Assembly (NCBI GenBank): GCA_020052975.1
Contig: JAGVOC010000384.1
Location: 1 to 5,791 of the forward strand
From: Desulfobacterales bacterium
GTDB taxonomy: Bacteria; Desulfobacterota; Desulfobacteria; Desulfobacterales; RPRI01
Direction: 5' to 3'
Length of the DNA stretch: 5,791 bases
Shown piece by piece: positions 1 through 5,791 of this stretch (positions are counted from its first letter, which is position 1; each line of letters begins with the position of its first letter). The translations under genes were made by a program, and so were the position numbers. The notes under the pieces are model-generated. The model made no database searches and was not told where the DNA came from. It saw only the letters and a program-made list of their open reading frames with translations.

Positions 1-1
1 C

Positions 2-2017
2 GAAAACAGTCTCGAATCCCTGAAAAGAGAACTCCAGCTCCTGAGCATCTCTCCCTCTCTTCAGTATATAGAAACAACATGGCTGATCAACAGGATGGAC
101 ATTGCATTCTCGAGCATCAAACATGAAGGCACGCTCGAAATACGCCTGATAGAACCGAAAAACGAGAGGGTCTACTACGTAACCGGCCAGCATGAATGCT
201 CTTTAGGCACAATGGGGCCGGATGACGCGTCATACATATCATGGGCTCAAAAAGAAGAAAATATCGGCCAGATCATGTTTACCAGCATTTCAACCATTCA
301 GTTCAATGGTAACCCCGCGCGTCCGATTATGAGAATGGTCATCCCTGTATGGCAGATATCCGTCGATGAATCACACCCCGTTGCAACCAATAAGTTTTCA
401 GGGGTCCTGGTCTTTTTTCTCGACGTAAGCAGGCTCATTGGCAATATTACCGATGAGATCCGCTCGGGGAAAACAGGGTACTCATGGGTTATTGATGAAA
501 ATGGCACGTTCCTCTACCACCAGGACGAATCGTTCATCGGGAAAAACGCGTTTAAGGTGAGGAAAGGGAAAAAGCCCACTATTTCATTTGAAAGGATCAA
601 TGAGATTCAGCAAGACAAAATGCTGAAAGGTGAAGAGGGGACCAGCTGGTATATTTCAGGTTGGCACAGAGGGGTTGAGGGTGAAATTAAAAAGCTGATT
701 GCATACACACCTATCTCATTCGACGACAAAGTGAAAAAGAGGATATGGTCAGTGGCAGTCGTAGCTCCTGTAAGCGAAATTGAAGGTCCAATCCATGAAA
801 TACAACAGCGACAGATACTCCTTCAGGCTCTCATCATCTTCGTCATCCTCTTTGGAGGAATCTTCATAAACTTCATGATCTTAAGCTGGTCAAATACGCT
901 TGAACAGGAAGTTACAAAAAAAACTATCGAATTAAAAAAATCGGAGCAGCAATACAAATCTCTCGTAGAAAATGCTGAAGATATTATTTTTACGGTGGAC
1001 TATCATGGAAATATTCTTTCAATAAACAGGTATGGTGCCTATTTTCTGACCTTGCGGGAAGAAAGTATTGTCGGACGCAATTTGCTGGATCTCATTTCAT
1101 GGCCGAGCAGCGAAGTGCTTCTGACGATGATCAAGAAGGTATTCGAAACAAAAGAGAGCAAGCAGATAACCCACCTGGTCCTGATAGAAGACCGGGAGTA
1201 CTGGCTGAATACGCATTTCAGAAGGCTATGGGATGAACAAGGAAATATCTATGCTGTCCTTGGCATATCGAGGGACATTACTGAAAGAAAAGAAATGGAG
1301 GAACATAGTTATTATACGGAAAAACTGGCGGCCATGGGGACACTTGCTGCCGGTGTAGCGCATGAAATCAATAATCCACTTGCGGTTATTCTCGGTTTTA
1401 CCGATATACTCCTGGAGAAGGCTCAACCAGATTCTGATGAATATGATATATTGAAAACGATAGAAAAACAGGGGCTCAATGCCAAAAGGGTTGTTGAAAA
1501 CCTTTTAAGTTTTGCGCGTTATAAAGAACAAAAGCAAGAACCCATTAATGTAAATGAGGGGATAGAATCGGTATTAAACGTTATGGGAAATACCCTTGTG
1601 GTAAACAAGATTTCTGTGAAAAAACAGTTTGAAGAAAGCCTCCCGGCGATAATTGGGGATACTGGAGAATTGCAGCAGGTCTTTTTCAACATAATCAATA
1701 ATGCCATTTATGCGATGCAAGGCGGAGGTATTTTAACAATTACCACAAAATCATCAAACGAAAAGGTTGAGATAAGGATAGCTGATACCGGATGTGGCAT
1801 TAAAAAAGAACATAGAAAAAGGATATTTGATCCGCTGTTCACAACAAAGGAGGTGGGGAAAGGCACAGGACTTGGTCTTTCTGTTTCGTATGGCATCGTA
1901 AAGAAACACGGAGGGTCCGTTACCTTTGACACAACGACAAAAGAAGAATCAGAGGAACCGGGAACTACATTCATTATAGACTTCCCGGTTGCGAAAAATG
2001 ACTCATTGAACGAGTGA
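2..2017 (+). CDS. Membrane sensor histidine kinase (Cache-PAS-HisKA-HATPase), 5' partial
   Basis: This is an inner-membrane sensor kinase that autophosphorylates a His with ATP and passes the phosphate to a response regulator, probably the one encoded next. The frame is open from base 2, so the first in-frame ATG at 95 is internal and the true start and first membrane helix lie upstream. Numbering from base 2 (671 visible residues): residues 1 to about 260 look like an extracytoplasmic Cache sensor (GYSWVIDENG, then FIGKNAF); about 272-295 is a hydrophobic membrane span (ILLQALIIFVILFGG); a short charged coiled coil follows; about 315-428 is a PAS domain ending in DITERKEME. The HisKA motif GVAHEINNPL carries the phosphoacceptor His454 (codon 1361-1363). 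HATPase_c shows the N box (NIINNA), G1 (DTGCGI), F box (FDPLFTTK) and G2 (GKGTGLGL). All catalytic motifs are intact. The core resembles NtrB/AtoS/ZraS-type kinases. The ligand is unknown. Confidence 0.95.
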   Translation, partial: ENSLESLKRELQLLSISPSLQYIETTWLINRMDIAFSSIKHEGTLEIRLIEPKNERVYYVTGQHECSLGTMGPDDASYISWAQKEENIGQIMFTSISTIQFNGNPARPIMRMVIPVWQISVDESHPVATNKFSGVLVFFLDVSRLIGNITDEIRSGKTGYSWVIDENGTFLYHQDESFIGKNAFKVRKGKKPTISFERINEIQQDKMLKGEEGTSWYISGWHRGVEGEIKKLIAYTPISFDDKVKKRIWSVAVVAPVSEIEGPIHEIQQRQILLQALIIFVILFGGIFINFMILSWSNTLEQEVTKKTIELKKSEQQYKSLVENAEDIIFTVDYHGNILSINRYGAYFLTLREESIVGRNLLDLISWPSSEVLLTMIKKVFETKESKQITHLVLIEDREYWLNTHFRRLWDEQGNIYAVLGISRDITERKEMEEHSYYTEKLAAMGTLAAGVAHEINNPLAVILGFTDILLEKAQPDSDEYDILKTIEKQGLNAKRVVENLLSFARYKEQKQEPINVNEGIESVLNVMGNTLVVNKISVKKQFEESLPAIIGDTGELQQVFFNIINNAIYAMQGGGILTITTKSSNEKVEIRIADTGCGIKKEHRKRIFDPLFTTKEVGKGTGLGLSVSYGIVKKHGGSVTFDTTTKEESEEPGTTFIIDFPVAKNDSLNE

Positions 2018-2061
2018 ACCGTCCCCTGGAGCGCAGTTTTTTATGAACGAAAGAATAAAAC

Positions 2062-2070
2062 GGAGGAGGG
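2062..2070 (+). promoter_or_regulatory. Strong Shine-Dalgarno of the response regulator
   Basis: GGAGGAGGG lies just before the ATG at 2075, with 8 bases between the core GGAGG and the start codon. It fixes the start of the receiver gene and implies efficient independent initiation, although the gene follows the kinase by only 57 bases. I see no convincing promoter in that gap, so co-transcription with the kinase is likely. Confidence 0.8.
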
Positions 2071-2074
2071 CAGG

Positions 2075-2497
2075 ATGGCAGGGAAAATATTAATAGTAGA
2101 TGATGAATTGGATATGCTTAAACTACTCAGCATGATCATCAAAGAAAAGACGCCTTATGAGGTTACAACCACCAATAATCCTCTGGAAGCGGTTGAACTG
2201 GCAAAACAAGGAGGGATTGACCTGGTAATTACAGACCTGAAAATGCCCGGACTTGACGGGATCGAAGTCCTTGAGGCCGTCAAAAAAGATGACCCGGATC
2301 GCCCGGTAATTTTTATTACCGCCTATGCAACGGTCGAATCGGCTTCAGAAGCTATTCAGAAAGGCGGGTTTGACTTCATTACCAAGCCGTTCAGGAAAGA
2401 ACAGATACTCTTCACCATTGACCGGGCAATGAAATGGATCGCCATGCAGAAAGAAAACAAGTTACTCAAAGAGCAGCTAAAGAAAAGTGAGAAGTGA
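2075..2497 (+). CDS. Stand-alone receiver-domain response regulator
   Basis: This 140-residue cytoplasmic protein is a CheY-like receiver that should accept phosphate from a histidine kinase, most plausibly the one encoded just upstream. Visible hallmarks are the acidic pair Asp9-Asp10 (LIVDDE), phosphoacceptor Asp54 (VITDLKMPG), the switch Thr82 (FITAYAT) and Lys104 followed by Pro (ITKPF). The start ATG has a strong Shine-Dalgarno. After the receiver, about residues 118-140 form a charged helix (KENKLLKEQL) like the linker that joins NtrC-type receivers to their AAA+ domain, but a TGA ends the protein there. No DNA-binding or enzymatic output domain exists, and the 81 bases to the next gene are too short to hold one. 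It may work through protein contacts, as a phosphorelay intermediate, or be a shortened NtrC-family regulator. The receiver assignment is firm; the role is open. Confidence 0.95.
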   Translation: MAGKILIVDDELDMLKLLSMIIKEKTPYEVTTTNNPLEAVELAKQGGIDLVITDLKMPGLDGIEVLEAVKKDDPDRPVIFITAYATVESASEAIQKGGFDFITKPFRKEQILFTIDRAMKWIAMQKENKLLKEQLKKSEK

Positions 2498-2526
2498 AGA
2501 GCAAGAGCGGAAAAGTATAATCGCCT

Positions 2527-2555
2527 TGGAGAGAAGGCAGAACCTTTTCTCTCTA
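2527..2555. terminator. Possible (bidirectional) terminator hairpin between convergent genes
   Basis: An inverted repeat pairs GAGAGAAGG (2529-2537) with CCTTTTCTCTC (2543-2553) around a CAGAA loop, with a two-base T bulge in the 3' arm and weak extra pairing at the base. On the plus strand it is followed by a modestly T-rich run (ATTCTTCACGTTT). It lies 29 bases after the receiver stop and 23 bases beyond the stop of the minus-strand gene, where a terminator shared by convergent genes would be expected. The lack of a clean U tract keeps this tentative. Confidence 0.35.
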
Positions 2556-2578
2556 TTCTTCACGTTTCAATGTTCACT

Positions 2579-5140
2579 TTATACCCTTGACGGCTTTTTT
2601 ATATGTTCATTCACAAACTGATCGATATACATATCGGTTAGCGCATCGTTGTACAGAACCGCATCGAGCTGTTTTGTATAGACAGTGAGCTTGCCCAGTA
2701 TACACAATGTTTCTTCGAGAGTTGACTGCTTATACTTTGCAAAAACAGCATTGACCACGTCCCCGTCGACATGAATCGCAAATCCCATCTTCCTGAGGAT
2801 TGCTTGTATAAGTCTCACCCGTCGCAATCTCCTTTCAAGAGATGATCCCCCGCCTTTAAAAGAGAACTTTATATAATTGTCATTCAGAGGCTCAGCAACA
2901 TAGGCCTCTATCGCTGAAAAATGATAGCCGAGCCGAATACTAAAATTCATGTAATTCCTGGCAACAATCGAAAAACTCTTTTCTTCTATATGAGATGGCT
3001 GTTTTACCGGGGATGAAGAGGATTGAAGCTGTATACCTGAAAAGCTTCTCTCTTCCGGAGGTCTTGGCTTGGGCCATGTCATATTGCTCATTCCATTGAA
3101 TATTGCAGAAAAGGGGATTGAAAGGATATCGGCTGGTGTCGGTTTCCTGACTTGCGGTGAAATGCCGCCGCCAATATCGAATAAGTGTATCGAGACAGGG
3201 ATTCCTGCCAAAAGCTTGACTGCCCCCCTGCATCTATGCCCTTCGCCGATGGATGACATTTCCTGTATTGCTTTCTCATGGGCGAAACGGGATATATCAT
3301 GGAAAGTCTCACAATATTCCGGGGTGAAATGAGAACTCTCAGGGTCTACAAGATTAAGAGGAACGATCTTCTTGAGTATCCTTTTCAGCCTTTTAAACAA
3401 AGCCATTTCCTTCAGAGGTTCTTTCTTCCCTGCGGTAAACTCCATGAGTTCGGTCACTCTGCCTTCGTATACATTGCAGTGAATGGCATCAACCGTTATC
3501 TCACAACCGTGTCTGATAACATTCGTAGCCACCTCAGAATTCAGAATCGCAGGGACTCGGTATTCCCTCGTGAGAGATGCCATGTGGCCCATTGCGCTTC
3601 CTGCATCTGTGATGATAGCTGATGCCTTGTGCATAACGGTGACATATTTCGGATCGGTGCGTCTCGCAATAAGGACAGCACCTTCCGGGAAATGCTTCAG
3701 ATGTTCTTCATCCTTCAGGAGGAAAGCTCTTCCAACCCCGATTCCTCTACAGGCGATAACCCCTTTTTCCAAAAGGAGGGGATACCCCTTGATTCGTCTC
3801 GGGACATCTAGCCCAGCTTTCTGCCGGATATCCCTTATCCTTAGCGGACGGGTCTGTAATATGTATAAGTGGTCATCTCTGTCAAGCGCCCATTCTATAT
3901 CCTGTGGGCAGCCGTAATATTTCTCTATCCCGAGTGCATATGTTGCCAGCGTTTTCATCTGTCCATCCGTGAGGCACTGTTTCCCCTTTAATGCATCCGG
4001 AATTCCGACTTCCTGAAGGACGCCGTCCTCACCAATGGCAACAATTGTTACCTGGTGTGATATTCTCCTGCTCATTATCGAGCCTTCAGGATGTCTTGAT
4101 ACGATATATGCATCAGAGGGAACAGTTCCATCCTCCATAAATTTGCCGAATCCATACCGTGCGTTTATGAGGATATGATGAGATGCGCGATCATTCGGAT
4201 CTCTGGTATACACTACACCGCCCGCTTTTGCATCCACCATGCTGAGGATTCCGACCGCCATTGCCATCTCTTCTTCTGAAAAACCGTTTGTCTTGTAATA
4301 AAATATTGCCCGTGGAGTGAAGAGACTGGCAACAACCTCTTTATATTTCTCCATAATCCGTTCCTCCGGGACATTGAGAAAGGTAGCATACTGCCCGGCA
4401 AAACTAAAATGGCCGTCTTCATGAATCGCGCTGCTTCTTACAGAGACCTTTGTTACTTTACCGGTCTTCCTGCAGAGACCTGAGTACGCATCCCTTATTG
4501 CGTTTGCTACATCATCAGGAATAGCCGAGCTTATAATCATGTCCTGTATTTCCCTGCTAACTTCATGAAGCTCTTCAAGATTTTCCAGTCTCAATGCAGA
4601 AACTATCCTGTTTGTGTTTTGAAGAAACCTGTTATGTTCCATGAATCTTTTGAATGCATATGAGCTGACCGCAAACCCCTCCGGAGTAGGAAGATTCAGT
4701 ATCGTTTTTACCGCTCCCAAATGTGCTATCTTGCCGCCGGCTATATGCCCCATATCACGGGTAATATCCTCCAGCGGAATGGTCAGGTCACTTATCGGGA
4801 CCTCGAACTTCCATAAAAGCATATTTTCAATATCTCTGTTAAGGACGTCAAATTTCCTGCAAAGCACTCTATAGGTATCTTCAGAAGAGAGTGCATTCAG
4901 ATTCTCGATGATATGCAACACCCCGGAAGCAATCTTTCTGACATTCGCATGAATATACTCTGCATCGAACAGGTATTCGCCTGATACCTTTTCTTCCATA
5001 TCCGCCATAATCTTCAGTACAATATTATTCGTTGCAAGAAGCTGCTGAAATGCAAGATACTTCTTTTTGAAAATTTCGCTGAGGTTATCTGAAAAGTCTC
5101 CGGAAGCCGTTTTTTTGAAATACTTTTGGAGATTCCTCAC
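2579..5140 (-). CDS. PEP-synthase-like ATP-grasp/phosphohistidine protein with an uncharacterised C-terminal region
   Basis: This 853-residue, apparently cytoplasmic protein is likely an ATP-dependent phosphotransferase working through a phosphohistidine. Residues 1-120 are mostly helical and unrecognised. About 120-435 is a pyruvate phosphate dikinase/PEP synthase-type ATP-grasp domain: GGKIAHLGAV near the start, SVRSSAIHEDG with FAGQYATFLNV (233-256), GGVVYTRDP (307-315), QDIEWA (413-418) and the closing LQTRP (428-432). About 455-567 is the swivelling domain with His519 (codon 3584-3586) in TDAGSAMGHMASLTREY. A basic linker (LFKRLKRILKK) leads to about 270 C-terminal residues instead of the TIM barrel that binds PEP/pyruvate in PpsA and PPDK. 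The carboxyl part is shared with the upstream paralogue. The start is GTG, with a weak GGA 7 bases before it; the frame stays open upstream for at least 15 codons with no better start. Databases would probably call it PEP synthase, but without the barrel that reaction is doubtful. The real substrate is unknown. Confidence 0.88.
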   Translation of the reverse strand: MRNLQKYFKKTASGDFSDNLSEIFKKKYLAFQQLLATNNIVLKIMADMEEKVSGEYLFDAEYIHANVRKIASGVLHIIENLNALSSEDTYRVLCRKFDVLNRDIENMLLWKFEVPISDLTIPLEDITRDMGHIAGGKIAHLGAVKTILNLPTPEGFAVSSYAFKRFMEHNRFLQNTNRIVSALRLENLEELHEVSREIQDMIISSAIPDDVANAIRDAYSGLCRKTGKVTKVSVRSSAIHEDGHFSFAGQYATFLNVPEERIMEKYKEVVASLFTPRAIFYYKTNGFSEEEMAMAVGILSMVDAKAGGVVYTRDPNDRASHHILINARYGFGKFMEDGTVPSDAYIVSRHPEGSIMSRRISHQVTIVAIGEDGVLQEVGIPDALKGKQCLTDGQMKTLATYALGIEKYYGCPQDIEWALDRDDHLYILQTRPLRIRDIRQKAGLDVPRRIKGYPLLLEKGVIACRGIGVGRAFLLKDEEHLKHFPEGAVLIARRTDPKYVTVMHKASAIITDAGSAMGHMASLTREYRVPAILNSEVATNVIRHGCEITVDAIHCNVYEGRVTELMEFTAGKKEPLKEMALFKRLKRILKKIVPLNLVDPESSHFTPEYCETFHDISRFAHEKAIQEMSSIGEGHRCRGAVKLLAGIPVSIHLFDIGGGISPQVRKPTPADILSIPFSAIFNGMSNMTWPKPRPPEERSFSGIQLQSSSSPVKQPSHIEEKSFSIVARNYMNFSIRLGYHFSAIEAYVAEPLNDNYIKFSFKGGGSSLERRLRRVRLIQAILRKMGFAIHVDGDVVNAVFAKYKQSTLEETLCILGKLTVYTKQLDAVLYNDALTDMYIDQFVNEHIKKPSRV
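2582..3211 (-). repeat. Copy 1 of paralogous C-terminal module
   Basis: The last 210 residues of the complete PEP-synthase-like protein align without gaps, up to the final few residues, with the visible part of the upstream gene (5158-5790). I count about 113 identities in 204 positions. The copies run in the same direction, as expected from tandem gene duplication. Identity is concentrated in YMNFSIRLGYHFS, NDNYIKF, RRLRRVRLI, YTKQLD and TDMYIDQFV, while the Pro-rich stretch after the first quarter is variable. Confidence 0.9.
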
Positions 5141-5154
5141 AATGTATTCCAGCG
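5141..5154 (-). promoter_or_regulatory. 14-base gap with weak ribosome site for the GTG start
   Basis: Read on the minus strand, the gap between the TAG stop of the upstream paralogue and the GTG start of the downstream one is CGCTGGAATACATT. TGGA (5148-5151) is the only Shine-Dalgarno-like element, with GGA 7 bases from GTG. The short gap and weak site suggest co-transcription and perhaps translational coupling or re-initiation. There is no room for a separate promoter in the gap itself. Confidence 0.5.
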
Positions 5155-5790
5155 CTAACGGGAGGTTTTTGATGAAATGATATGTTCTTTCACGAACTGG
5201 TCGATGTACATATCCGTTATGACGTCATTATACATAACCATGTCAAGCTGTTTCGTATAGGCAGTAAATTTTCCCAGAATCATCAGCTTCTGTTCAATCA
5301 TCTCCTGTTTATATTTCGTCATGACCGCATCAATCACATCTTCAGTGACAGTAACTCTGAAGTCCATGTGTTTCAGAATCTCCGAAATAAGCCTCACTCT
5401 TCTCAATCTCCTGTCCTGTGCAGCTCCCCCTCCCTTGAAAAAGAATTTGATATAGTTGTCGTTGATGTTCTCACCCGCATACGCCTCAACGAGTGAGAAA
5501 TGGTATCCGAGCCGTATACTGAAATTCATGTAGTGCTTCGATACCACTGCATAACTGCTCCTCCCCATTTCCTGCAGCTGGTTCTCAGGGACAGAAGCGG
5601 TATGGGCAAGCATGCCGAGAAACCCTTTCGCATCCGCAGGCGGAGGCCCCGGCCATTTCATACCTTTCATCCCTTTCAGCATCGCGGAGAATGGAACAGA
5701 GTAGATATCCTCCGGCGCTGCCTTCTTGATATTCTCCCTGATGCCTCCGTCGAGATCCAGCAACTGCACATTCACGGGGATGCCGGCGAT
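5155..5790 (-). CDS. C-terminal part of a second PEP-synthase-like paralogue (5' partial)
   Basis: Only the last 211 residues are visible. The frame stays open to the window edge: residues before the GTG at 5773-5775 read IAGIP and match LAGIP at the same place in the downstream paralogue, so that GTG is an internal Val and not a start. The visible part matches residues 644-853 of the neighbour at about 55% identity, including YMNFSIRLGYHFS, NDNYIKF, FKGGG, RRLRRVRLI and TDMYIDQFV. By analogy the missing part should hold the ATP-grasp and phosphohistidine domains, but this is inference; a protein made of the C-terminal module alone is possible. It ends in TAG 14 bases before the neighbour's GTG and is the upstream gene of an apparent two-gene operon. 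I recognise no enzymatic motif in the visible part. Confidence 0.88.
   Translation of the reverse strand: MAGIPVNVQLLDLDGGIRENIKKAAPEDIYSVPFSAMLKGMKGMKWPGPPPADAKGFLGMLAHTASVPENQLQEMGRSSYAVVSKHYMNFSIRLGYHFSLVEAYAGENINDNYIKFFFKGGGAAQDRRLRRVRLISEILKHMDFRVTVTEDVIDAVMTKYKQEMIEQKLMILGKFTAYTKQLDMVMYNDVITDMYIDQFVKEHIISSKTSR
5158..5790 (-). repeat. Copy 2 of paralogous C-terminal module
   Basis: This is the same-orientation partner of the module at 2582-3211. Similarity is visible in the DNA too: the segments near 2601-2700 and 5180-5280, covering the last 40 or so codons, are close to base-for-base alignable. Both copies are intact in frame with no stop, which argues that both are kept under selection. 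The left boundary of the repeat is not reached because the window ends. Confidence 0.88.
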
Positions 5791-5791
5791 A

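Follow-up and report, generated by a model that had tools for sequence, protein, structure and literature searches.

Tandem PEP-synthase-like genes of a Desulfobacterales bacterium belong to a large undescribed family of phosphohistidine dikinases, with hints of a regulatory role

A short contig of a Desulfobacterales bacterium (GCA_020052975.1, JAGVOC010000384.1, positions 1 to 5,791; this whole stretch of 5,791 nucleotides is hereafter the window) poses the question of what two neighboring genes resembling phosphoenolpyruvate (PEP) synthase might do. The first, gene B (2579..5140, minus strand), is complete, with a GTG start, no internal stop and a product of 853 amino acids (aa). Upstream of it, beyond a gap of 14 bases (5141-5154), lies gene A (5155..5790, minus strand), open to the window edge and represented by its C-terminal 211 codons, which begin at the position of B residue 644. 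We use PPSL as a working name for the PEP-synthase-like family that includes both. Our analysis indicates that A and B have diverged from each other within a phosphohistidine dikinase family that is large and undescribed, and that neither is a PEP synthase; we recognized no description of this family in the open-access literature that we searched. Sensor kinases and ion transporters are encoded next to many PPSL genes, a hint of an unrecognized regulatory system, and the reading we favor, to which we give a probability of about 45%, is that PPSL is an ATP-driven phosphohistidine transferase that works for an ion/anion transport circuit under two-component control.

The A fragment and the tail of B are identical at 113 of 204 positions (55%) without a single gap, a likeness that, at an E value of 8e-83 (BLASTP), is not due to chance. 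The window contains no more of A than its tail, and the full-length gene of this strain was not seen. The database lists B on a contig of 5791 bases, equal in length to the window; A is thus interrupted by the contig end, and no mutation was seen in it. In the nearest genome among those compared (G001), the B orthologue (89% identity) is located at the start of one contig and the A orthologue, intact over 827 residues, runs to the end of a different contig, so that the assembly break seems to fall inside the A/B pair just as it does in the window. This A-bearing contig is identical to JAKLQR010000274.1 from a Thermodesulfovibrionales metagenome-assembled genome, bin S2.74 (our locus L149). The G001 A protein carries PPDK_N and the PEP-utilizers swivel domain and shares 54% identity with the window B over 806 aa; since the match extends beyond the tail, A and B are, as judged from their sequences, whole-length paralogues. 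A preliminary description of the window had reported two same-strand PEP-synthase-like genes 14 bases apart with a gap-free likeness of about 55% and intact frames, all of which we confirm, the frame of A being intact as far as it is seen in G001, where nothing marks it as a fragment or pseudogene. The C-terminal module through which that description related the two genes is real, but their likeness is not confined to it and covers all of the protein available for comparison.

B and its relatives share an order of helical N-terminus, ATP-grasp domain, swivel phosphohistidine domain and C-terminal module. In B the N-terminal helices (residues 16-108; 4817..5095, minus strand, as are all B features) are seen in a full-length model and this part has no Pfam match. 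They are followed by the ATP-grasp domain PPDK_N (residues 133-437; 3830..4744; E 6.8e-87) and the swivel domain PEP-utilizers (residues 484-552; 3485..3691; E 2.2e-17), in which residue alignment predicts H519 (codon 3584..3586) as the phosphohistidine. The C-terminal module (approximately residues 600-850; 2591..3343) matched no family above cut-off in B, gave no credible hit in Pfam or NCBIfam across the 87 members scanned and no convincing fold in fold comparisons, and the preliminary description had rightly left it unassigned. It includes an HDxxRxxH motif (residues 614-621; 3278..3301); in one short branch, discussed below, R618 and H621 of this motif have disappeared along with H519. 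Across 84 aligned full-length relatives, picked from 111, K137, R235, E416 and Q429 of the ATP-grasp domain and H614, D615, H740, R774 and D826 of the module are invariant, and H519 is kept in 83. The presence of ATP-grasp and swivel domains with conserved catalytic residues places the family in the phosphohistidine dikinase superfamily. The PEP-binding barrel PEP-utilizers_C (PF02896) is absent from B at E values up to 1 and from the 827 residues of G001 A at E values up to 0.01, and because this barrel is absent neither protein is a PEP synthase.

The architecture also sets PPSL apart from other known systems. Enzyme I of the phosphotransferase system (PTS) takes its phosphate from PEP, whereas PPSL has an ATP-grasp domain. 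PEP synthase (pyruvate, water dikinase; PDB 2ols) shares PPDK_N and the swivel domain with its catalytic histidine, but PPSL is without the PEP/pyruvate barrel and instead has a different C-terminal module and an extra helical part at the N-terminus. In HpeHI, CreHI and PpsAB, as portrayed in the portions of PMC12167813 drawn on here, ATP-grasp and swivel domains are on separate proteins of aromatic catabolism, whereas in B and G001 A they are fused, and PPSL genes lie beside signalling and transport genes. Rifampin phosphotransferase (RPH; 5hv1) ends with its swivel domain, with the catalytic histidine motif at most 50 residues from the C-terminus according to the same portions of that source (PMC12167813), while the swivel of PPSL is central, at 484-552 of 853 residues in B, and the new domain comes last. 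The parallel with RPH drawn in the preliminary description is thus fair for the chemistry but fails for the domain order and at the level of the RPH equivalog, where B scores 233 against a cut-off of 999.

A search by module recovered PPSL in 112 of 395 Nitrospirota genomes, G001 included. Of 148 genomes from the phylum to which Desulfobacteraceae bacterium Eth-SRB1 belongs, 60 gave a match, Eth-SRB1 itself being one. A scan of named genomes yielded at least 568 confirmed stretches, of which 80 were kept as loci (L-numbered); their titles name Nitrospirae/Thermodesulfovibrionales, Thermodesulfobacteriota or 'Deltaproteobacteria', Zixibacteria and a few unnamed organisms. High numbers of matches were observed in G398 (7, two or three of them about 3 kb apart) and G447 (12). 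Separately, dsrA was noted by eye in 104 of the 112 PPSL-bearing Nitrospirota genomes, a count confounded by shared ancestry.

Natural dissections of the protein offer a view of how its parts may work together. In an alignment of 213 PPSL rows, identical rows retained, 14 are without ATP-grasp (L043, L056, L106, L110, L113, P0161-P0167, P0169 and P0171; P0166 and L110 are identical to each other), and the N-terminal helical part is present in the five short forms examined. One group of 12 short forms has H519 replaced by Tyr, R618 by His or Tyr and H621 by Asn in all 12, and is unchanged at C610, T612, H614, D615, N732, R736, H740, N755, R770, R771, R773, R774, D794, Q824 and D826, with D655 altered only in P0166/L110. 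H519, R618 and H621 occur together in 184 of 190 full-length rows. Given this correlated loss, we read the module as probably having two sites, one with R618/H621 tied to phosphate transfer and another kept for binding without catalysis. The genome of L113 also has a full-length PPSL and that of L110 a full-length pair.

The gene neighborhood hints at a regulatory role. In the window, a sensor histidine kinase (HK) of dCache-PAS-HisKA-HATPase architecture (2..2017, plus strand, with its start outside the window) and a single-domain response regulator of 140 aa (2075..2497, plus strand), both identified by domain search, are convergent with B, a terminator-like hairpin identified by consensus match only (2528..2552, plus strand) lying in between. 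We compared 40 Nitrospirota PPSL loci, chosen for diversity and for pairs, with 20 PpsA/PPDK loci from the same genomes. HK genes neighbor 32 of the PPSL loci versus 2 controls and receivers 28 versus 1. The other neighbors have no counterpart in the controls: GntR (16 loci), CBS (15), USP (15), DASS (13), CitMHS (12), TauE (11), c8 (9) and LCIB (9); MrpE (6), MrpF (4) and MrpG (4) are not significant alone. The Pfam names of these neighbor clusters rest on one member each. G001 has the gene order MrpB-MrpG-MrpF-MrpE-LCIB-DASS-CBS-GntR, oriented divergently from A.

What the sequences show is domain content, conservation, gene context, the recurrence of pairs and a correlated loss of residues; the catalysis, the regulatory role and the acceptor in the following putative mechanism are inferred. 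By analogy with relatives, the ATP-grasp domain would transfer the beta-phosphate of ATP to the swivel residue H519, with release of AMP and Pi. The swivel would next deliver this phosphate to an acceptor that the C-terminal module holds, and R618/H621 would lie near the site of this handover. The acceptor would be part of a regulatory circuit under the neighboring sensor kinase and receiver, and the circuit would control anion/Na+ transport through Na_sulph_symp, CitMHS, Mrp and TauE, together with CBS and USP proteins.

Several points weigh against this proposal. The 40 loci were not drawn at random, some of them, like some controls, have short flanks, and most neighbor profiles (CBS, GntR and others) were built partly from clusters of the test loci and the named-scan loci, so that the comparison favors the test side. 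CBS, GntR, DASS, LCIB, TauE and USP are all absent from 16 of these 40 chosen loci, and a two-component gene is found within two genes of only 44 of 73 PPSL genes with neighbors on both sides in the named loci. A metabolic product would also be in keeping with the GntR/UTRA regulators, since members of this class commonly respond to small metabolites. On the side of the residues, the short forms L043 and L056 retain H519, R618 and H621 and have R736 changed, five of the 190 full-length rows keep H519 yet change R618 or H621, and the full-length L095 has Tyr at 519 with R618 and H621 retained. Moreover, the correlated loss of the three residues belongs to one clade and hence represents one evolutionary event.

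The principal alternative, which we consider possible but less probable than the regulatory proposal, is that PPSL is a metabolic small-molecule dikinase whose module binds an organic or inorganic anion imported via DASS/CitMHS and activated by phosphorylation, CBS being an activator and GntR/UTRA sensing the product. Phenylphosphate synthase PpsAB, HpeHI and RPH are precedents with the same chemistry and domain parts, to the extent that these are set out in the portions of PMC12167813 used here; many loci have genes for a CBS protein and an anion carrier nearby, and the invariant polar residues of the module resemble an active site. Yet no recurrent catabolic enzyme was recognized around the family, the commonest neighbors are the sensor kinase and the receiver, and most module residues and the two-component neighbors persist in the branches that have no ATP-grasp, including the one that has lost the phosphohistidine as well. 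A bolder form of the regulatory proposal appears doubtful to us: a PEP-independent phosphorelay, the ATP-powered counterpart of PTS Enzyme I, in which the dikinase-charged histidine would pass phosphate to a two-component, CBS or USP partner and tie energy state to Na+/anion uptake in sulfate-reducing lineages, the pseudo-dikinases without ATP-grasp or phosphohistidine acting as regulators.

Returning to the pair itself, the preliminary description had envisaged two subunits of one complex and had suggested looking for side-by-side recurrence. Adjacent pairs do occur in other genomes: 15 of the 80 named-scan loci have two PPSL genes, on the same strand in 12 and spaced by at most 6.1 kb. They are directly adjacent in L078 and L091, and a two-component gene lies in between in 11 of the 13 other pairs. 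At least six Nitrospirota genomes (G308, G300, G318, G141, G210 and G183, judged by eye) carry two matches on a single contig, separated by about 2.6 kb. In a tree of 114 rows (quick method, SH-aLRT support only, midpoint root), the window A groups with G001 A and the single copy of the same-genus genome G284 (support 100), then with G167 and G222 (99). The window B and G001 B share a branch of length 0.41 at another place in this 17-row clade, with weak placement (81), and A and B are not sisters. The G308 pair falls in another subclade together with one L078 copy, the pairs of L057-L061 split into two distant clades of five rows each, and those of L117, L131 and L151 likewise split into two clades.

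An obligate hetero-oligomer of A and B is accordingly improbable in our estimate. The 14-base spacing suggests co-translation, pairs recur, and those of L057-L061 and L117/L131/L151 look deep and co-inherited. Against this, G284 gave one PPSL match only, an A, the pairs of the window, G308 and L078 originate in different subclades, and 65 of the 80 loci have one copy or none within their flanks. Since A and B are not sisters, G284 yielded only an A and other pairs derive from other subclades, pairing is recurrent, having arisen several times and sometimes been long kept, but the window pair is not an ancient fixed heteromer; for this lineage, the earlier idea that the two copies persist side by side because they form an obligate complex is not borne out.

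Script-computed Nei-Gojobori estimates between the window and G001 give B a dN/dS of 0.31, with a higher value, 0.38, for its C-terminal part; over the 163 codons of A that can be compared the value is 0.13, and for the HK it is 0.085. G001 A versus G284 gives 0.12. B is constrained, but less so than A, and evolves faster. That B is a decaying duplicate is equally improbable: the long branch and the ratio above that of A would fit, but the ratio is well below 1, two genomes preserve an intact frame, and the catalytic residues, H519 among them, are kept. The pair most likely represents specialization of an accessory copy (B) beside a syntenic copy (A) and not an obligate two-subunit enzyme.

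It is very improbable that A and B are an ordinary PEP synthase or RPH, despite their PPDK_N and PEP-utilizers domains and the database names 'pyruvate,water dikinase' and 'phosphoenolpyruvate synthase', since they have no PEP-utilizers_C, B scores 336.9 against the 739.75-bit cut-off of the PEP synthase equivalog TIGR01418 and 233.2 against the 999-bit cut-off of the RPH equivalog NF041857, and the genomes carry separate PPDK-sized or PpsA genes. The true PpsA of G001 has PEP-utilizers_C and is located elsewhere, between two Kinase-PPPase genes (PF03618), the family to which the PEP-synthase regulatory proteins belong. With this PpsA as query, a separate PPDK-sized gene was seen by eye in 19 of 20 related genomes, 8 of which also have a gene nearer PpsA (44-96% identity); G195 showed, besides PPSL, only a 311-aa frame.

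Some further features of PPSL loci were observed. In G001 (L004 2240-4557), a homologue of LCIB-type beta carbonic anhydrase (PF18599, E 7.7e-52) lies between a Na_sulph_symp carrier and Mrp antiporter subunits, possibly as part of a bicarbonate or ion-transport operon in an anaerobe. Cluster c8 (L041 13254-14024 and relatives, 228-256 aa) often adjoins TauE and USP genes and had no Pfam match in the one member tested. PPSL forms of about 1065 aa (L067 8257-11454, L073 6239-9427) have an extra C-terminal lectin-like domain with a weak Glyco_hydro_59_C match, just over the cut-off in L073 (E 3.7e-6) and below it in L067. The long PPSL of L067 adjoins, on the opposite strand, a PPDK-like gene (L067 5257-8106; 949 aa) with PEP-utilizers_C.

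Members of the family bear names such as pyruvate, water dikinase although those tested are without the PEP-binding domain, and such names mislead models of the metabolism of sulfate reducers and subsurface bacteria. Should the regulatory reading prove right, ATP-driven phosphohistidine transfer would constitute a further phosphate route for control besides the PTS and two-component systems, and the short pseudo-dikinases together with the recurrent neighbors make this reading directly testable.
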